Below are positions 10,601 through 63,880 of a stretch of DNA of 64,000 nt, piece after piece. A model generated the notes under the pieces. It was not told where the DNA came from. It saw only the letters and a program-made list of their open reading frames with translations, and made no database searches. The stretch's first letter is position 1, and every line of letters starts with the position of its first letter. Position numbers and translations under genes: made by a program. Source of the DNA: Mesaphorura yosii (taxonomy: Eukaryota; Arthropoda; Collembola; Poduromorpha; Tullbergiidae); assembly GCA_009869945.1 (NCBI GenBank), contig WIXG01000005.1, forward strand, positions 124,001 to 188,000, given 5' to 3'.

Positions 10601-13600
10601 AAGATGAAGCTTGGCAGACAGGCAGTGCGGTCGAGATCTCAGGCTCATTTGATGAACGGAGTTGGACCTTCGACAATAACAAGCTCAAACAGACTACTAG
10701 TAGTTGCCCATTTCTTCGTTCACAACTCGGAATCTTAGACATAGAAAATTATAGTTGGTAAATGCACGGCTATGGCATGGCGGACGAGGAAAAGGCACAC
10801 TGAGAAACGAATGGCCCGAAAAGTAAATCAACTCACTGCATGAAAAAAGAGGTCTTTACGGATGAACAATTCAAGAAAATGAAAAGCCTGCCTGATTATT
10901 CCATTTCATTGGGTTTCTTGATGTTTGCTCTCTTCTCAGACCGCTCTTCAATTACATTATTCAGGAAAATGAGTAAAACGAGAAACCAAAAAATTGCTTT
11001 CTTTCTCTCATGCATGTTTGATTGTTCGCATTTCACATCGCGTGAGGCTGAGCCTGAGCGAACGCAGATTTGCGGTGTGGCGAAATAAGTAAATCTGTTA
11101 AGCGTTGCATTGTGATGAAAGCAGCTGAGCTTTTGTATTGTGGTGGAGAGAGAGGAAAGACGAGCTGTGGTCGTAATAAGATTTGTAACGCAATTACGCT
11201 CATAAGAGCGAAATGAAAATGTAAACATTTTGTGTCCTTGGCGCAGGAAATAACTCTGATCCTCGCTATGATTTTATGACGTGAGATAAGTCGTTCGCAC
11301 TCGCATTCGGCCTTTAGCGGTTTATTAGCGGAAAATTGGAATTCTTTCATTCGAATTGTGATCGATTCATCCCACACAATTCTCTTTCGCAGAGGTCCAG
11401 TTCGCAGACAATACTTCAATTCCTCAGGCATCCGTCTGCAGTGAGCAATGTGATCGCGGATCGGCGAAGAAAATCAGCGACGTTCCCTGCTGCTGGAATT
11501 GTCAGAAATGCTTAAATTACGAGGTAATAAGTTTCCCATTTTTATCAGCGGGATTTGAATAGCGTCGCACAAGGCAGAGATTCTTTTTCTGCACCGCCAT
11601 CCATTTACTTCCTGCACACGAGATCATAAATAACGTCTCCACAACCCAGAAATCGTTACTCCATTTCAACCCGCTTGATTCTTATTATTATTGAATTACA
11701 CGAATAATTGACTTTCATGTTCTCGCTTTCACTTTCAGATTCGTGACAAGTTTGACGAGAGCCAATGCACGACATGCGCACTGGGCACGCTTCCAAATCT
11801 GCAGCATACTGAATGTGTTCCGATTCCTGAGATTTATCTCCGGCCCAGCAGGTATTTTAGAGATAGCAGTACAATTTTCTTTCACCCACGCAAAAGTAAG
11901 TAGCAATTGCAGTCAATATCATTCAATTGACCATGCCGCTGTTCGCCAATAACTCGCTGTTGTGCCCGAAGGCAGTGGGCCGCCAAATCTTGGCTTGACT
12001 TGAAGTGTCTTCCTATCTGAGTCAACAAAATGAATCTTGCATCAAACAATTTAAGAAGGGTTTAACATTCCTCAAGAACTTTCTCCGTGCCGTGCAGCAT
12101 TTGATACCACCAGACCATAAACAAATCCTGCCCATTTGCTTTGATGACTTATTTACTTGAAATGCAATTTTCAACTGGATACTTCGTACCAGAATTAAGC
12201 TTAGCCTCACAGTATTCTCTTCGAGTCAGCAGAAGTTTCTTGGCCGTAGTGACAAATGGTTGTCTTTTCTTCACCACTTGTATCCTCTCAAACTGTCTTG
12301 TTTAACATTTTATGCATTGCATTTCTCGTACGCTCCGACAATAGCTCTCTGCGGCTGCAGCACAGCAGCGTCTTTGTGCCAGAAGCATAAATTAAGCTCT
12401 GAGATTCATCTTCTTGTCCAGGAGACATTTTAGCATCATTGAATACGCTGGAGTATTGTGAGGCTACTTCATTTATAACTTAGCACAGGAAGAGAAAGCA
12501 GAATGGGCTTTCTCCGAGCTGGAAAGCTAAGTTATGATGCGTATGAATGGAGCTTTTCTAATAAAGAGCTCTTACTTCCAGCAATGCGCCTCGCCGCGCC
12601 AGCGAAAATTCAATCCTTTCATTTAGAACTCTTGTTTTTCTTTGATTTTCTCTTTTTTCCATTGCACTTCAACACTGGCGACTCGTTTCAGAGGTGCTCA
12701 GCCTCAGCCAGTCGTGTTGCTGCGCTGCTGTCAGGCCCGAATGAAATAATAATATCACTTTCATTTAATATTCTGCTTCCACTCTGCTGCCGTTGTGCGT
12801 CTCGAGAGCTGCTCTTTGTTTCCTATACATAATAAATTCGTCCGATTCATGGCCCCTTTCTTTCATTATCTCAAATAGCGTAATAGTGTTACTCTCATTA
12901 GCACAAGAAAGAGAAAATAAAATTGTACTTTCGGATTCCTCGGTTGACATTTTCTTCGACAACGACGGCGATTGCAGCCTGAAGAGTGGCAGAAGAGGGA
13001 TTCTCTGTACTGGAAGCAATGGGTTTAATTTATAAATGCAAGCCAAGCGTTTCCTTTGTATATAATTCAGTGCGCGTCATTAACAAATGCTAATACTCGT
13101 CGTACTTTTCTCTGACTTGTTTCGCAGTGGCTGGGCAATGGCTTCCATGACTTTTGCAGGACTCGGGATTCTATTAACTCTCTTTGTTCTCACTGTTTTC
13201 CTGTGCCACAACGACACTCCTGTCGTTCGAGCTTCTGGTCGAGAGCTGTCTTACGTGCTCCTCGTCGGACTCCTGCTCTGCTATGCCTTAACTTTCCTCT
13301 TTGTCTTTCGGTAAGTGACTTGCATTAATTGATTGACTAATTTCAGTTATTTCACCAACTCACTGTCCAATGGGAGGTAGAAACAAATCAAAGTCAACTT
13401 GTATCACATTCTGGCATTCTTGAATCAAAAAGCGCAGCGGAAACACAAACCCAAAATTTTAGGGCATTTGTTTGAAGTTGAGTCTAATCATTTCATGCGA
13501 TTACTCATATTTTAATTTCTAAATTCTGCCCTTCCGCTTTGAACATGCCAAAATGCGCCTCTGGCCGTAATACAGAACACAATACATGAAACACCTTTTG

Positions 13601-34600: not shown

Positions 34601-36325
34601 CTGAATGTTACATTCGCTTGCTGAACCCAAATTGGATTAATTCACACTAATGAGAAATAAATAGGATTTTGTGTAAATACACGTTAGAACTAAGAGAGAA
34701 ACAGATCATTTCGTGTGTCGTTAGCCAAACTCGAAGTGAAACTGATGAAGCATTGATTTACATTTGTAATTGGAATCGGACAGCATTATTTATTCGGGCT
34801 GGTAGTAAAACTTCCGAACTTTTTGAATAGTACTTCAGATTCGTCGGGATGAAGCGTTGAAAGTGAGCAACAGCATTTTGGATACGTAGGCCTTTGAATC
34901 AGTGAGATTTACTGCGAAACAACTACAAAAACACGCTTTCTGCCCTTAAACAATGACATTTCAGGCTCTGGATTCCGGTACAGTGTTCTAGGTTGGCAAT
35001 ATTTCACTGACAGAAACTGCCGAGCTGTTGAAAAACAATTTCAAGTGCATAATCCACTTACAGAAAGTTAGCATGGGCAGCCGACCGATTACCCACTGGA
35101 GCGCGCCACAATGCTGTAATGGCAGCACACTGACGCTTAAACAACGGACGCGGCCATAGTAGAACTTTCATGACCTTAATTTTTATTCACAGTTTGAGTA
35201 GCTTATGTCTCAGCTCTCGTCACGGTAAACAAACTCCGGAGAAATGGCACGCAAAATGCAAAAACAATACAATTCAGCTCATCGACGAGTCGGTCTTTTC
35301 CCGAAGGAGCTGGCTTTCCTTGTATGCGTAATTTTGTTCTACGAGAAGTATTGTCCACGTTTGCGTTTCCCAACACATTGACGAAGTCAGTTTCATTTCA
35401 GATTTTAGTGTACGCAAATAAATTCTAAGCAAAAAAGTTTGTGGAAAGTTTTATTTAATGAGCTAATTTGAGCGCTCTTTTAGTTTCAGAAATTGGTGGC
35501 TTGGCTTAACTACGTTCGCTTGCACTTTCGCATCGAGGGCGGAGATGAAGCGAATACTGTACCGATCGATCCCTAGGATCTAGAATCTAGATTAGGAAGC
35601 TTTCCACTCTGCACTGGCGCTGCTGCCCTGGCCGTCCTCAAAATTGGAATTCTGAAAAGTTTGGACTCCTTTCCTATCATGTCATCGCTTGCCGAAAATC
35701 TTACAGTATCGTTTTAGCAAACGAAGGCACAGATTTATGGTGTGTCTGGGTCAGAGTTCACATAGAACACGTGAATAGTTAATTTAACCAACATCGGGCC
35801 CTTCCTACTCAAACTGAAGTTAGAGTTTCACCTTTTTTTCTATTCTCTTATAAAAAGACTTTCGGCATAAACGAAGCGGCGTGGACTTTGCTTGAAATTC
35901 AGAAAATCTCGCCCTTTGCGTAGGTTCATTCTTGTGATCTCGCGACATGACGACGTTGCGAGTTGCGATGTGACGTAGTTGTTTCCTGGACTTGGACTTG
36001 GGCGGTTTGGTTTTACTCTTGGCCTCGTGCTGTTAACATTTATCAATGTCGGGGTCGTGATCGTGACGTCTTAACTTAACTAGCCAAGGAGGTCGCGTAA
36101 ATTTGTGAAGCAGCTTCACACTTTCGGGTTATTTCCGGTAGCATACCAATTACAGCTTAATAGAGGACTACTCCTTCTCTTGACTGTCTTTACCAGTTGG
36201 ATTCAAGTAAGTACTCTGCTATCAAACTCTGGTAAACAAAATTAAGCATTCAAGTAAATCGTTAATTTACCTTGCCTTTTGGTTTCTTCATGTTGTGAAT
36301 AATATATTATAGATTACGCGCCATC
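31603..36325. other. Intergenic stretch without a recognised gene
   Basis: No supported exon chain was found. Isolated acceptor-like sites occur (for example just before 32518 and 33781) but the short frames after them have no partners. A 12-bp perfect inverted repeat lies at 34044-34087. The last few hundred bases should hold the promoter and 5' UTR of the TBP-like gene; I could not place a TATA box or initiator with confidence. Confidence 0.45.
34044..34087. repeat. Short perfect inverted repeat (hairpin-forming)
   Basis: TAGTACACATAG at 34044-34055 is exactly complementary to CTATGTGTACTA at 34076-34087, with a 20-base loop between. The stem is too short for a typical miRNA precursor. It could be a degraded element end or chance. 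Confidence 0.6.
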
Positions 36326-37561
36326 ATGGAGGACTCTACGTTTCCATTCAGTATGCAAGAAATTGTTTATGGTGGTGGAGAGATTGCCGATGGTATGATC
36401 GAAGCCGAATTGGATCCACGTGATGTTATGCCTGGCTGCAGCATGATTAAGATTAAAGGAACTATGGTATGTACACAGACCCAGCTAGGTGAATTGGGAT
36501 TCCTATTTGATAATATTGTGCAGGATGCTGCTGGGGCTAAAGCGTCCACTGGACGGAAGCAACCAGCACGAAAGCGGGGTAGAAGGAATTATCAGGAATA
36601 CGAAGATGATGAGGACGACGAAGATACCGAGGATGACGACGAGGAAGATGTTCAAGATACCATTCCTACTTATCCATCTGCTGAACAAGCTCAACGAGAG
36701 GACAGTTATGCTCAAATTCAACAAAAGGTGCTTTTTGCGGACTCACTTAAGTCACCATCGGCTCAGAAAGCCTGGGAAACGGAAAATGCACCCTATGACG
36801 CGAATGGCAAGCCCAGATTTGAAGCTGAAATATTGTAAGTAGCGGAATTTAGTTCTGTCCTGTCAATTTCGGCAAAGTCCAACATTTTGTAATGGAGTTA
36901 TTCTTTTAAAGAACTGTTGTTGCATCAGTTAACTTAGCCGACAAATTGGACTTGGCGAAGATTGCTGACAATTCGAGGAATGTGGAATACAATCCAAAAT
37001 ATTTCTCTCCACTCATCATGAGAGTTCGTGATCCAAAATCTACTGCTCTGTTGTTTGCATCTGGGAAAATGATTGTCGCTGGCACTAAAACAAAGGAAGA
37101 GTGCAAGTTGGCTGTTCGGAAATATGCTCGGATTGTTCAGAAACTTGGCTACGAAGTTAATTATGCTGATTTTGAAGTTCAGAATATTTCTGCTAGCGCA
37201 AACCTTCGCTTCGCTGTCCGAGTGCACGAAATGGCTAATGACGAGCGGATCAAACAGTTTGTGAGGTAAACAATAAATGGTAAAATTACGTACAAATTAC
37301 TGAAGTTTGACGTTCTAACAGTTATGAAGCTGAAATATTCCCTGGACTCGTCTATTCGCTGGTTTATCCAAAGGTGAAGGCGATAATCTTTGTGACTGGA
37401 GCTGTTTTGATGACTGGTAAGTAAATTAGTTGTTGGCGAAGCTTCTCAATTCTCAAGAATAACCCGGTTAAACTTTCTTCTACCCAGGAGCCAAATCCGA
37501 AGAACAAGTCTATGAAGCATTGGAAAGTATTTATCCCGTCGCACGGACATACATGCGCTGA
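36326..37561 (+). CDS. Divergent TATA-binding protein (TBP-related factor)
   Basis: Nuclear core-promoter DNA-binding protein of the TBP family. Exons 36326-36834, 36912-37265, 37322-37416 and 37488-37561, all GT-AG and in phase, encode 343 residues. The C-terminal half (from about residue 170) is the two-repeat TBP saddle: VNLADKLDL, NPKYF, TALLFASGKM, RKYARIVQKLGYEVNYADF, YEAEIFPGLVYS, FVTGAVLMTGAKSEEQ, IYPVARTYMR. The four DNA-intercalating phenylalanines are present (residues 201, 218, 294, 311, with the family's 17-residue spacing), as are the two Glu that contact TFIIB (290, 292). TBP-like factor 2 lacks those Phe, so this is TBP or TRF1-like, not TRF2. The core is far less conserved than any normal animal TBP. 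The N-terminus has no Gln tract; it carries a basic patch (77-87) then an acidic run (about 91-111). A possible ATTAAA signal is at 37753. Convergent with the next gene. Confidence 0.88.
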
Positions 37562-48593: not shown

Positions 48594-51500
48594 ATGGACA
48601 AGGGCACAAAGGGCAAGGCTCCTGTTAAAGGAAAACCCATCGCTGCTGAAGCTGACAAATCTAAGTCTGAACCAGCACCAGTGCTCGAATTCAAGGTGTA
48701 CCGTGAAAATCCAAGTGATCCGTTCAAGCCAACTTCAGAAACTGCGGTGAAGGCGTTGTCAACTCAGCCACGAAAAGAAATACTCGAGCCCGATGATGAG
48801 CAGCTCCTCCAAAGCGTTGCGGCTGACTTGGACAGGTCGCTCTCCGTTGAAGAAATTGTAACTCTGCCGTACCCAGACCCTAAAATCAACTTCGAATGCT
48901 CCGTGGAACTGGCTAAACTTCCAACATGGCTGAGATCTATGATACGAGCAAGGTTCTCCCTCATTCAAGATCATTTCAAACATGATACGGCAAAGATTAT
49001 TCGAAATTTGGCCACCAAAATTAATCAACGAAAATTATTAAAGTCGGACTATGGAGGCTTCGATTTTGGAAAGGAGGCAAAGGAGTTCGAGACGGGCGAA
49101 GAGGATTTGTTGGAAAAGGAACCTTCCTTCTTTGAGGCATCTGGTGCAAAAACGGTGCTGAGGGCGGTTCACGCGGGTTCGTTTTATTTTATATCTATCA
49201 AATGATCAGCCTCAGCTAAAGTAAAGCTCAGGCTTTCATCAACTAATTTTACAATTCATTGTGTAGTTGGAAAATTTAAGAGGAGGAGAATTGTTGGAAG
49301 TGCCTGGGATAGGCCCCAGGTTCAATTTGCATGTGAGATATTACGCGAGTGCCTTACCCTCAAGGCCGGGAAGACTGACTCGCTGCTGGTTGAAGAGGAC
49401 CAAAGCATACAACGTCAGGTCGACGATGAAGAACCATCTTCAGAAGAGGATGAAGAATTCAAGGCGAACAGACCAAAGTGGGAGACCATGTTTGCACCCG
49501 GGCAGTTGGAAGAAGAGACTGAAAAAGAAGTGGATAAAATATTGCTTCGACAGGAAGTCGCAATTGACGAAGAGGTAGGAGATGAATCGAAGGACGCCAA
49601 GAAGAAACTAGAAGAAGGGACGAAGAAGAAGCGTGCTAAGAAAAAGGAGAAAGAGAAGAAAAGCGCAAGAGTTGTTACGTTGCCAAAAATCAAGTGGCAG
49701 CAGAGGAAGCGAGAAAGAGACAAGGGATTTTCTAGACCAGCTCGGGGCCATTTTCGCGAACATGAAAAATTGTTTTACATTGGCTGTGGGGACCCTGTGT
49801 AAGTCGAAAGTATCGTATTTTTAAGCTCCAGTTAACTAAATTTTGACACTTATTGACCAGACGGCCACCTGAGCGTCTGGAGCACCATCACCGATTTGAC
49901 GAAAGCTTTCATGCATTTTGCGTGGCTTTTGTATCGTGGCGATGGTTTCAAGTGTTCATAATGTGCATGATCTTTTTGAATGCGCTGGTGTTGGCAGCAG
50001 AGACATTTGATGTTAGTGAAGATCATTACATCATTTTCGACGTCTTTGATGAAGTAGGCCGTATCAATATAATCATTTCCATTGCCATTGCCATTCGTAG
50101 TGTGAATAAGTTCCCTCGAATGACTTCAGTTCTTCCTGGCGATCTATTTGACTGAGGTGATTGTTAAAATTTACGCGCATCCCTTTCGCTACTGGACGTC
50201 CGGGTTCAACGTTTTCGACTTTATCATTGTAATGGTGTCAATCATAAAGGTAAGAACGAGCGAAGAAAGCACATCTTTGTTTTGAATAATAATTCATAAT
50301 ACCACTTTCTCAAATTTCTCTCTAGAGCATCATAGACTGGCTTAATGTTGCTGAAATTGCATTTCTCCGAGTCTTCCTCATCGTTCGAGCCTTGCGCGTC
50401 CTGCGCAGTATTTCACTGTCCATCCAACTTCAAGTAAGTGCATAGTTAACATTACAGATATTGTCTCTACTAAATATTAGTTAATTCTATCGTTTATGTG
50501 TGCCTTTATTCAGGTGTTGGTGACAGCGTTGGTTGAAACCGTGAAGAAGCATGTCCTGAGTGTAGTAATCTTACTAACTCTTTTAATCTACATAGCAGCT
50601 ATAGTCGCGTATTATTTCTTTGGAGAGAGAATGGTAGCGGTGTGGGGCTTCGTACCACAAGGAATGCTTCGTATGGTTTCATATGTCACGGTAAGTTTCT
50701 GGAAACTGGAAACTGCTCTGGAATGTGATCTTGGAAACTGGAATCAATTTTACTCTTGCAGCTGGATGGATGGGCAGATTTGCAAAAGGAATTTGAGGAA
50801 GCTGGCTTGTTGGTTGAAGGAAGAATCTTCAACCTAGTTTGCATTGTGCTTGGGAATTTCATGTTTTCAAACATTTTCATTGCCATCATTATTTTCAACA
50901 TCTCAGAGGCCACGGACCTGTTTCGTGTAAGTTGAGAGAACAATGTAGTAACCACCGACAAATTGCACCTGTTGAGGTTACAAAGTGAAGCCTTGCTATT
51001 AGCGTTATTACGTTATTAATGCTGCTCCTTAATGCCTCCTTGCTTGGCTTTCAAAGGAACGGATTCGAGAAGAAAGAGAAAACATTGTACAGCGGAAGAA
51101 AGAAACTGTGTTTCGTCGTCAGAAACTGGATATGAGGCAGCTGCTTGCCCGACAAAAGAAATCTTTCGCAGCAGACTTTTTCTACATGGCTAGCCAATTT
51201 CAAAAGTTACTCCGCCACGATGACTTGGTAGCCATGAGAGAAACGTGCACATCTCCCTTGTGGATTGACGCCGCGTATCAGACGCTGCTTCGAACTACTC
51301 ACACCTCCAACATGTAAGATGTGAAAGCATTATTTCCTGGAATGAGATGAACAAAATTGATCAGGTTCGTATAATCTCTATTAGACTACTCAACTTACAC
51401 CGCGAAATGGCAGACAATATTTTACGCTTACATCGACTTCATGGTGATAACAAAATGCAAGAGTATTCAATTTCACGTGGCCGCTACAATCGATATATGA

Positions 51501-52055: not shown

Positions 52056-53688
52056 ATGACCAGCAGACGCATTGAAGGACTTCCATACTTGCCTGGAAAT
52101 ACATTCGTTGATCCGACGGTAAGATCTTTTCATTGACTGAACGCAAGAGGCAAGACGCGTAGCAATTAAAATGATTTTACACTTCTGATGGTTCGTAGTT
52201 GTGCGATTTTCGCCGGTGTCAAGTATTCCACTTCAAGAATGGGTTCCGTATGCCTAAAAACAACTACTTGGGAATAGGAAGTTGCCCAATTGAAGCCAAG
52301 GCCACGGTGAAAGATCTCTTTGACATTTATAAGTAAGTGCATTAATTAATCACATCGTACGAGTCTGTTATAATTCATCATAACTGCACGGACGGGAGTA
52401 ATCATAACGCATAACTGTACTGTACTAATGCTAATGCTTTCCCACAAAGCTACGATCCATCACTGACGTATGGCAAGCCGAGATCCAAGCCAAAGCCACC
52501 TGTCATCCCAGCATTTGTTAAATTGGCGCAGAAGGTACTGTCAGTTACAAGATCATTAATAGTACCGACTACAATTCAGCACTGTATCCAACCTCTGTAG
52601 ACTCTCCGCTTTTATGGATTTTACAAAGAAACTGTAAACGACTCGCCCGATGAGACTTACCGCGTTAGACCAGTTGAGATTTTGTACTATCTCGAGGATG
52701 ACAGCATGATGGTAATAGAGCCTAAAATTCAGGCAAGCTCAGACTCAAACTATGAACTTCAACTTATTAATAATGAATTAAATTAAGTTAAGAATGCATT
52801 CCTTTCTTTCTTCTAGAACTCTGGTCTGATGCAAGGCAAATTCCTTCAACGTCACCGAATTCCGAAGAACAGTCTTGGAGAAACGTACAACTGGAGGGAT
52901 TTGAACCTGAAGTGTGAACTGGTCTTCTATGGGAGAGCCTTCCGCATTGTTGATGCAGACCAGTTCACGAAGAACTTTTACGAGAGCGAGGGCGTTATAC
53001 TCAACGATCCGGAAGACATGCCCAAAGACCCGTACACGGACAAACGCTACTTGACTCTCCAAAAGAGAACATTCACTTCGCCATCAGTATGCATTTCTTA
53101 ATCATTCAAGCCCAACCGCTAGTTCACAATCTCATTTCGCTTTGCCAATTCCATTTCCAGGTTCTGAGCAATCCAATTAAGAAACTGATGGAATTTAACA
53201 ACAAAGCTCTGGGTTTCAAGTGCGTCTGGGATGATCGCCACGATGAAAATGATGAATTGAGGAAATACGAGTTGTTTTACTATCTGCAAGACGATTGTGT
53301 TGAAGTGAAAGAAATCCACGGGGTAAATTCTGGACGAGACCCTATCACCTTGTTGCTTCGCAAAACAAGACTTCCTAAGAATTGGAAAGATCTTCCAAGT
53401 AATAGATTCAACTCATTTGATTCATATTGATTAAGCTCTAAAGTTGTTTGGAACTTGATTTTCATTCTATTTCTTTTTGCAGTGCAATTCCCAATCATCT
53501 ATCTGGAAGCAACTGCTAAAGACTATGTCGAATACTACGAGCCGAAGGACTTTAAAATTGGGAATACAATCAGTGTTTTTGGACGTCGGTTCCTGATTTA
53601 CGACATGGATGAGTTCACGAAGCAGTTCTATCGAGACCATTTCGGCTACACCGATTTCCAGCCCATCTGCATCGACACGGCACAATAA
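52056..53688 (+). CDS. EFHC-family DM10 protein, short form with two DM10 domains
   Basis: Axonemal microtubule-associated protein of the EFHC1/EFHC2 family. Exons 52056-52118, 52199-52332, 52450-52534, 52601-52732, 52817-53086, 53161-53398 and 53483-53688 are in phase and give 375 residues. The N-terminus is typical (IEGLPYLPGNTFVDPT; compare the GLPFLPGTSF region of EFHC1). DM10-1 begins near residue 95 (LRFYGFYKE, YYLEDDSMMVIEP, NSGLMQGKFLQRHRIPKN, FYGRAFRIVDADQFTKNFY). DM10-2 begins near 245 (GFKCVWDD, YYLQDDCVEVKEIH, SGRDPITLLLRKTRLP, ISVFGRRFLIYDMDEFTKQFY). The protein stops about ten residues later; human EFHC1 (about 640 residues) continues with a third DM10 and an EF-hand region. Intron 4 (52733-52816) uses a GC donor. 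No frameshift is visible before the stop and a polyA signal follows, so this looks like a genuinely short gene. Confidence 0.92.
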
Positions 53689-61500: not shown

Positions 61501-63880
61501 AAGAAGTTGGTCCATAATTTCTAATTTCTTTGCCAGCTGGATTATATTTTTCAAATGACGGTAATAATATTTTGACAGAGGATTGTCAAGTAAAGTTGGT
61601 AAACGTGAAACACAAGAAATCAAGACTACTGTTTCTTACCTGAAGCATCTTATGCTGGACCTGCGTCGGCGGATGAATCATTGTCAGCATTTGTGACACG
61701 GAGTCATGCTCCTGATAGTGACACACTTCGTTGAGCATGCTAATTGCAGTGTTCGCATTTGCGTTGGAATTCACATTGGGCGCTGACAACGCAGAAACTA
61801 ATCTCGTTTCCAGATGCTGACTTTCCACTCCGAGTCGATGAATTCCGACGTAGGTTGCGATGAGGAATATGAGTGATATGACCAGGCTGATAAGCCGCAG
61901 AAGAATATAAAAGTAATTATAGAAAAATTCTCGTGTCTTCCAGTTGTTTGAGCATGAAATTCCGATTCCCTCGAGTGCGAACTCAGACCAGCCGAGAAAT
62001 GGAGGACACATCAGAATGAAGCTCAGCGCCCAGATGCATTTGCAGGTCTACAGTGGGGGGCAAAAGTGTAAGAATTCAGTCATTAGCAATGTAAAGTATT
62101 AATTTACAAGAAGAACGACCAAAATACTTCTGCTTCCGAGCCCTTGCAGCTTTTTTTTTGTCGTTACAATCTTCCCAATCACTCAACGTCATGTGCTTCT
62201 CCGTTCACTATTGCCAAAGTTGCAACTTTTTCTTGGTGAATTCCCGTTAATTTTGTGCCGGTAATTAAATTTTATTTCAATTTTTTGCTCTGATACAGAT
62301 TTCATTCAATTCATTATGAATGGAGAAATAAAGAGTATAAAAAAGTAATAATTATTGGAGTTTCTCCATTTCATAAAACTTTCAAGACCCAATTATTCGA
62401 GTGCTTCTGTACGAAGCACTCGTTTTAAATTTCAACTGCGGGTCTTTTGTCCGCTTGAAGCTTCCCCTCATCATCGTCGTCAACACCTCATTTTCCGGTT
62501 TCAAGGTCTGCACTCTGAATCTCGGCTTGCATACATTATCTATTCATTGGAAGCCCAACTTGCCCTGAAACTTGTTTTTGTCCAATTATAAGTTTTCCTG
62601 CTCACGTCTCACGTCTCATGCCAAGATTTTGCACAGCATGAACATGTGTGCATGTACTTGTGTACTTGGACATGTACTTGTGTACGTGTGCTTGTAGCAG
62701 TTATGTGGTTAATTTTATATTAAATCTCAAACTTTTTCCCGACTTTTTCTACTTTTTATTAAAAATTAAATTTGCACGTGGAAAACACTCCTTCGTGTAC
62801 TGTGTCATGTTCGCAGTAGAAACGCAAGCAAATATGCACGCTATGTCTCAACGACGTCTCAAGGTTATGCATTTTTCTTCAATCGGGCGGTTGCCTCGTG
62901 TAATTATTTTTTATCTCATGTTTTACAGTGAAAGAAAATCAAGAACCCTCCTCATTGTAACACATTGCTTATGCTTTCACTACTCTGGCTGTGTTCAACT
63001 CTGTGCGCTCGTTGGTATTTGCATTTGGCACTTGAAAAGCTACTGTCTAAGACTTTACGATGACGCAGATTGGTTCAGACAAGCACAACGCAACAAGGTA
63101 CAAGGAAACCTAAATTATGGCACATTTCTTGGCTTTGAGTGAAAGAATTATTAATTTATGTCTTGTTACATCTTCTTAACGGTGGCGACGAGAACATGCC
63201 TGGCAAGGTGCAGTCTGCCAGCCAAGACACGCAAAACGCTAGGCGCGGGCAGCCGAGCGAAAAGCTATAAGTGAGTCAAGTTAAATATTTGCTTTCTTCT
63301 TAGCTCGCGTATGATGAGACGAGACAAAGAGGCAAACTGCGCGAGAAAGCTGCTGCCCTCAAACTCACTAACTACTCAACTTGTACACTGGAAAGCGTAC
63401 TTGTGCTATGTGCTGCGTTGAGTTGAGTGTCGGAAATTTTATATGACAAGAACTTCAATGTTAATATCGAAATTTCCACAAAAAGGCGCTTCTACATTGA
63501 CTTACGCGCTCATTCGCCCACCAAACCACTGAAAACCCATAAACTGCGCAAAATTGACTCAGCACGATGCCGAAGGTAGTCAACGTGGAGATCACAGTCC
63601 CAATACCCATTAAAGCACCATACAAACCACAACCTACGTTTGGCAATGTAAATTAGTACAAGGTTACACGTGTAATTAATACCGCCACATCTTTGCGTGG
63701 TGAAAATGCAAACTCAGTTTGCGGCATTGTGTATGACGTGACTTACCAATCGGTCCCACCATCCCCGGCTGAGTAAACGCGGAGTAAACTGATATAAATT
63801 GACATGCAGACACTATCAAGTCGTTGGCAGATAAACTCAAGATTAATGAGTTTGTTCCCTTTTCTTTCGCTTGAGGTGAT
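55503..63880 (-). CDS. Opsin-like rhodopsin-family GPCR with non-canonical DRY region (5' partial)
   Basis: Seven-membrane receptor. Minus-strand exons 63747-63880 (TM2), 63506-63633 (TM3), 61640-62047 (TM4-TM5 and third loop), 58454-59324 (TM6-TM7 and tail) and 55503-56305 (tail) join in phase, giving about 780 residues; TM1 lies beyond the right edge. Opsin marks: Cys of TM3 (GCGLYG); PPFLGWSEFALEGIGISC in loop 2, with Glu and Cys at the spacing of Glu181 and Cys187 of bovine rhodopsin; SWLPY in TM6; and FAKLNVICNPVIY in TM7, with Lys exactly five residues before NPxxY, the place of retinal-binding Lys296 (codon 59178-59180). Odd features: where ERY/DRY should end TM3 the sequence is SQF (63551-63559); the TM5 proline is replaced; HPEFR follows TM7; the third loop is about 70 residues and the Ser-rich tail over 450. 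Function, photoreception included, is unproven. It could also be an opsin-derived or parallel orphan receptor. Confidence 0.83.
56306..58453 (-). other. Intron in the opsin-like gene tail
   Basis: Donor after CAATCAG (GTTAGA) and acceptor TCCTTTGCAG, phase 1 on both sides. No other gene is supported inside. A plus-strand frame at 57188-57415 has no recognisable features. Confidence 0.65.
59325..61639 (-). other. Intron between TM5 and TM6 exons of the opsin-like gene
   Basis: Donor CTTCAG/GTAAGA and acceptor CTTTACAG, phase 0. I see no nested gene or repeat worth naming. Confidence 0.65.
62048..63505 (-). other. Intron between TM3 and TM4 exons of the opsin-like gene
   Basis: The donor is a strong GAGCGC/GTAAGT and the acceptor CCACTGTAG, phase 0 on both sides. 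I searched its minus strand for a small exon with a D/E-R-Y/F/H/W/C motif and found none in a hydrophobic context. An imperfect 20-base tandem pair lies at 62651-62690. Confidence 0.65.
62651..62690. repeat. Tandem pair of a 20-base unit
   Basis: CATGTACTTGTGTACTTGGA at 62651-62670 is followed directly by a copy starting CATGTACTTGTGTACGTG. This is a small local duplication in intronic sequence with no other feature. Confidence 0.7.

Follow-up and report, generated by a model that had tools for sequence, protein, structure and literature searches.

The right end of the window, by which we mean the whole stretch of 64,000 nucleotides of Mesaphorura yosii DNA that was analysed, holds a minus-strand gene for an opsin-like receptor in which Ser-Gln-Phe stands at the D/E-R-Y site of TM3. 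The locus raises the question whether this receptor is an opsin that truly lacks the motif, and what a retinal receptor of this kind could do.

Gene structure and the tripeptide at the D/E-R-Y site

Using flanking DNA from the same contig, we modelled the gene, here called SQF opsin, as five exons encoding an intact class A receptor of 589 residues, with the first exon just beyond the window edge. Every intron has GT-AG boundaries and the frame is open throughout. The features, in window numbering, are as follows.

64908-65131, minus strand: exon 1, outside the window; placed by GT-AG boundaries, frame and residues
63747-63880, minus strand: exon 2, with ICL1 and TM2, to GPIG; placed by GT-AG boundaries, frame and residues
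63506-63633, minus strand: exon 3, with TM3 from the conserved Cys, SQF and the start of ICL2; acceptor CGTAG, donor GTAAGT
63551-63559, minus strand: Ser-Gln-Phe codons replacing D/E-R-Y (3.49-3.51), by alignment to bovine rhodopsin 134-136
62048-63505, minus strand: intron 3, where a phase-aware scan found no suitable exon bearing an Arg motif
61640-62047, minus strand: exon 4, with TM4, ECL2 carrying Glu181-, Ser186- and Cys187-like residues, TM5 in which Ser replaces Pro5.50, and ICL3
61970-61972, minus strand: Glu181-like residue
61952-61954, minus strand: Cys187-like residue
58449-59324, minus strand: exon 5, with TM6, TM7 carrying the retinal-type Lys, NPVIY, an HPEF helix 8, a serine-rich tail and the stop codon
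59178-59180, minus strand: codon of Lys7.43 (Lys296 of bovine rhodopsin)

The one receptor domain that Pfam finds in the product is 7tm_1 (E 4.1e-23), matched over the whole profile by residues 65-357. The C-terminal tail of 217 residues contains 54 Ser and 9 Thr. On synonymous codon use SQF opsin scores 0.010, at the low end of the range of 0.008-0.131 obtained by leaving one out over 12 receptor ORFs of the Mesaphorura yosii genome, and above all nine intron frames (-0.106 to -0.042). GC3 is 0.534 versus 0.377-0.430 in introns. A pseudogene was considered and rejected: frame and splice sites are unbroken and codon use lies within the coding range.

Exon 3 translates to (G)CGLYGALMGIGTVISTLTTFGIVLSQFCAVYGFSVVWWANER. 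From the TM3 cysteine it takes 24 residues to reach the Ser of SQF, the same as from Cys110 to Glu134 in bovine rhodopsin, and this spacing and the rhodopsin alignment agree in assigning Ser-Gln-Phe to the D/E-R-Y site, as the initial annotation had done. The GTAAGT donor that it had called strong ends the exon in the gene model as well. Between the same cysteine and the TM4 Trp there are 47 residues, against 51 in bovine rhodopsin, which makes ICL2 shorter by four residues where exons 3 and 4 join.

The gene could have been misread, through a sequence error or by overlooking an exon or donor that restores D/E-R-Y. The SQF codons are AGT CAA TTT, several base changes away from any D/E-R-Y, and a single sequencing error is therefore no explanation. 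Replacement exons were sought between the end of exon 2 and the start of exon 4 (62048-63746) as single open segments of 90-179 bases, preceded by AG, followed by GT and preserving both splice phases of exon 3. Five segments fitted, three of them the SQF exon with other ends, and none of the five contained an Arg motif (D/E/G/H/N-R-Y/F/H/C/W). An alternative TM3 exon restoring D/E-R-Y was thus rejected for single exons of this size range and region, in keeping with the earlier claim, made from the Cys-Trp distance, that no ERY exon is obviously missing. Since one exon reads through TM3 with the right spacing, we regard a misread gene as extremely improbable.

The substitution also stands out within the genome. 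When an opsin profile was run on the ORFs of 56 genome loci, 31 other TM3 rows had a residue at the Arg position (profile column 135), and all 31 carried Arg, one of them (L042) in a doubtful alignment. In an alignment of 21 receptors, the 20 other rows all have Arg3.50 and Pro5.50, whereas SQF opsin has Gln and Ser.

Opsin kinship, retinal site and switch residues

When the first 406 residues were searched against solved structures, the top ranks went to rhodopsins (bovine 3e-14, Kumopsin 3e-13, squid 1e-12); receptors for neuropeptide FF, cholecystokinin and somatostatin came next, at 2e-11 or weaker. In a tree built, like the alignment, on uncurated reference sequences, SQF opsin fell together with nine opsins and apart from eleven other receptors, with support of 95/95. 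Without TM7 and helix 8 the grouping had support of 86/95, below the level starred by the tool. A non-opsin with a chance lysine was rejected as a candidate, because joining SQF opsin to the melatonin receptor was rejected (p-AU 0.011) and the opsin grouping persists, unstarred, without TM7. The initial description as an opsin-like receptor, for which phylogeny had been named as the check, holds, and both opsin kinship and a true absence of D/E-R-Y are supported by these comparisons.

The position with respect to the opsin classes is less sharply defined. Because the best tree sets SQF opsin outside the nine opsins, with weak support (75/20), it may be a sister of the opsins. Its end branch of 2.5 is the longest in the tree (median 0.94). 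Placement gave p-AU values of 0.428 with r-opsins, 0.323 with c-opsins including OPN3 and 0.337 with RGR and RRH, in a set without retinochrome. Where rhabdomeric opsins carry the HPK tripeptide and DRY, SQF opsin reads HPE and SQF.

The retinal-attachment residue Lys7.43 is present in FAKLNVICNPVIY, where it is followed by LNVICNPVIY. Glu181, Ser186, both cysteines and Tyr268 are retained as well. All four elements that the initial annotation had listed as kept (the retinal-type Lys, the Glu181-like and Cys187-like residues and NPVIY) could be located in the gene model. Its further claim that the receptor is able to bind retinal would agree with the Lys, Glu181 and the cysteines; the pocket as a whole, however, resembles opsins less than does that of any of the nine opsins compared. 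Over 31 pocket positions, an informal list, SQF opsin shares a mean of 9.6 with opsins, compared with 11.6-14.6 among the nine opsins and 3.7-7.9 for the eleven non-opsins. It has an Arg at the Phe208 position (5.43).

The loss of the D/E-R-Y site is accompanied by other changes in the class A switch. SQF opsin departs at 3.40, 3.43, 3.49, 3.50, 5.50, 6.30 and 6.44; the initial annotation had recognised SQF in place of D/E-R-Y but missed the departures at Pro5.50, 3.40, 3.43, 6.30 and 6.44. On a list of 18 switch positions, compiled after the target sequence had been seen, SQF opsin retains 11, RGR 13, the other eight opsins 17-18 and the eleven non-opsins 16-18, so that of the nine opsins used for reference the photoisomerase RGR alone is close to it. 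SQF instead of D/E-R-Y means that the Arg3.50 required of signalling opsins is lacking, while two further features of signalling opsins, Tyr5.58 and NPxxY, are present, as are D2.50 and the HPEF start of helix 8.

Opsins, retinoid genes and other features of the genome

The Mesaphorura yosii assembly (93.0 Mb, 1127 contigs) was searched for further opsins. Squid rhodopsin gave 40 matches (20 taken as loci), OPN3 25 (20 taken) and OPN5 18 (none taken), and these queries matched mainly apparent amine- and peptide-type receptors. A second retinal-lysine opsin was not found with protein queries, TM7 segments or the pattern FAK-x5-NP. From the listed part of a set of 158 matches, 40 TM7 places were taken, of which at least one (L068) is probably not TM7. 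With a loose expression position 7.43 was readable in 38 of these and was Lys in none, and none of the 24 places with a strict NPxxY carried Lys7.43. Of five further places inspected by eye, three show TM7, with Tyr, Leu and Tyr at 7.43. The FAK-x5-NP pattern occurs at 34 places genome-wide, against 11 in a reversed control, and one of these is SQF opsin. From the other 33, 29 were read and four have an in-frame stop; none was judged an opsin. One of them (L117) reads NPNLF but presumably belongs to something resembling a Sec7 domain. Lysine opsins with another residue before Ala-Lys were covered by the protein queries only, and a second opsin in short exons could escape, because the search went exon by exon and only the best candidates were scored.

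Matches to genes for handling retinoids are many by comparison with the one retinal-lysine opsin found. The RPE65/carotenoid oxygenase family has 29 matches in the genome, mostly clustered on contig C3 (G000:C3:99024-131375) and also found on C54, C81, C84 and C392. Retinoid or carotenoid cleavage genes are thus apparently expanded, and the making and handling of retinal is therefore plausible.

Other features of the window and genome were recorded in passing. A fragment at 49847-50152 and 50481-50834 (plus strand) weakly matches an ion-transport protein (0.0009, under the Pfam threshold) and is taken by us to be CatSper-like. It adjoins a DM10-domain gene at 52954-53427 (plus strand), presumably EFHC1-like, and the pairing would be in line with genes of cilia or sperm. 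At 36299-37266 (plus strand) a TBP domain comes after a long acidic reading frame, possibly a divergent TATA-binding protein, and an exon of a class C receptor lies at 13084-13311 (plus strand; 7tm_3, 9.9e-19). Receptors with an N-S/F-x-I-Y-like TM7 and no Pro7.50 occur on C339 (at least five matches), C302, C456, C575, C604 and C824. Several of them share a contig, and they resemble a family of peptide receptors that has expanded, which we assume to be myosuppressin-type. Neither a TTAGGN telomere repeat of four units nor a COX1 family match was found in the whole assembly, and a search for a conserved 18S stretch was likewise negative.

Possible functions and comparison with known receptors

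In view of the above, our preferred reading, to which we assign about an even chance, is that SQF opsin is a real, intact and fast-evolving animal opsin that has kept the chemistry of retinal attachment and lost the class A G-protein switch. The lost switch would consist of Arg3.50 and the partner positions 3.49 and 6.30, as well as Pro5.50 with 3.40 and 6.44. Ordinary activation is unlikely because all six of these positions are changed, and ordinary G-protein coupling has likely been lost. Retinal would be bound to Lys7.43, and Glu181 would serve as counterion. Light, or occupancy by retinal, could then move the receptor, but the change would not reach a G protein by the usual route. Since the retinal site, NPxxY, Tyr5.58 and the long tail with its many serines remain, we infer an output other than G-protein signalling, which could be of the arrestin or kinase type through the serine-rich tail, or retinoid binding or photoisomerisation of the RGR kind. 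In passages of a published report, Arg3.50 touches the G protein in a complex of opsin with peptide, and C5L2, which lacks Arg3.50, is described as non-signalling (PMC3414077). Peropsin illustrates how equivocal such cases can be, since the wild type is described as giving no detectable G-protein response, while chimeras responded (PMC5824942, part of the text). Counted against an uncoupled opsin are the divergent pocket with Arg at 5.43, the long branch and the low-end codon score; the retention of Tyr5.58, NPxxY and D2.50 would fit some signalling. More specifically, the only retinal-lysine opsin found could work independently of G proteins, through arrestin or kinase on the tail or through retinoid sensing, which we put forward as a minority possibility; SQF opsin, unable to use the Arg3.50 switch, would then, equally tentatively, respond to light or retinoids as a receptor outside the classical opsin cascade.

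The same residues allow other explanations. A photoisomerase like RGR or retinochrome would bind all-trans-retinal, have it isomerised by light and hand it on without a G protein. RGR is the only other compared opsin with a broken switch set, the two depart alike at 3.43, 3.49, 6.30 (a gap in RGR) and 6.44, and the 29 RPE65/carotenoid oxygenase matches would suit such a role. However, Arg3.50 and Pro5.50 are both retained in the uncurated RGR reference sequence, and a client opsin was not found within the limits of the genome search, which speaks against a pure supply role. We consider a photoisomerase, one of the functions proposed initially, possible but rather doubtful; for a scaffold or chaperone, also proposed then, positive evidence is missing. 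A comparably small share of our belief goes to a relic, an opsin under relaxed constraint with little or no function in an animal that has abandoned phototransduction by opsins. The divergent pocket and the longest branch in the tree leave room for it, as would the many changed switch residues and the failure to find another lysine opsin in the search described. Yet the 589 codons are free of stops, the splice sites are canonical, codon use and GC3 are unlike those of introns, and the key retinal residues are kept.

An unusual but working G-protein-coupled light receptor would need another residue to do the job of Arg3.50. The retained Tyr5.58, D2.50, NPxxY and HPEF would agree with this, and many opsins that couple to G proteins use Glu181 as their counterion. 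The departures at Arg3.50, 3.49, 6.30, Pro5.50, 3.40 and 6.44 together make it distinctly improbable.

Known systems share parts of this combination. RGR and retinochrome photoisomerases (PMC7910522, in the part consulted) have the retinal lysine and, in RGR, a broken switch set (13/18 compared with 11/18). They differ from SQF opsin in that Arg3.50 and Pro5.50 are intact in RGR, and the search brought up no client opsin beside SQF opsin. Kinship with RGR and RRH, at a p-AU of 0.337, is neither supported nor rejected. Gluopsins and nemopsins are also opsins that lost a hallmark residue, but according to the sections consulted (PMC9368030) it is their lysine that changed, to Glu or Arg, whereas SQF opsin keeps the lysine and lacks Arg3.50. 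Choanoflagellate rhodopsins, opsin-like receptors that lost E/DRY from TM3, are described as lacking the lysine and Glu181 as well (PMC12716839, in part). In scallop Gq-opsins with DRC or DRF the lysine is kept and D/E-R-Y is altered, but in the excerpts available only the third letter changes and Arg stays (PMC5114761, PMC10733189). For brittle-star opsins 'derived DRY-like' tripeptides are mentioned, with no letters given in the portion consulted (PMC4289182). C5L2, D6 and DARC are class A receptors without a charged 3.50, and C5L2 binds ligand without signalling, as stated in part of that source (PMC3414077). With their peptide or protein ligands they compare to SQF opsin in how they work, and no kinship is claimed. 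Atypical chemokine receptors belong in the same comparison. A literature search on opsins with altered D/E-R-Y, covering listings and text passages, found no lysine-bearing opsin without Arg3.50.

Published opsins with a changed lysine serve to ask what opsins do without light. SQF opsin poses the converse question, namely the role of a retinal pigment that lacks the trigger for G proteins. It would offer a natural test of how far the photochemistry of retinal can be told apart from the activation of G proteins, and of how light or retinoids are handled by an animal whose other opsins are few or absent.
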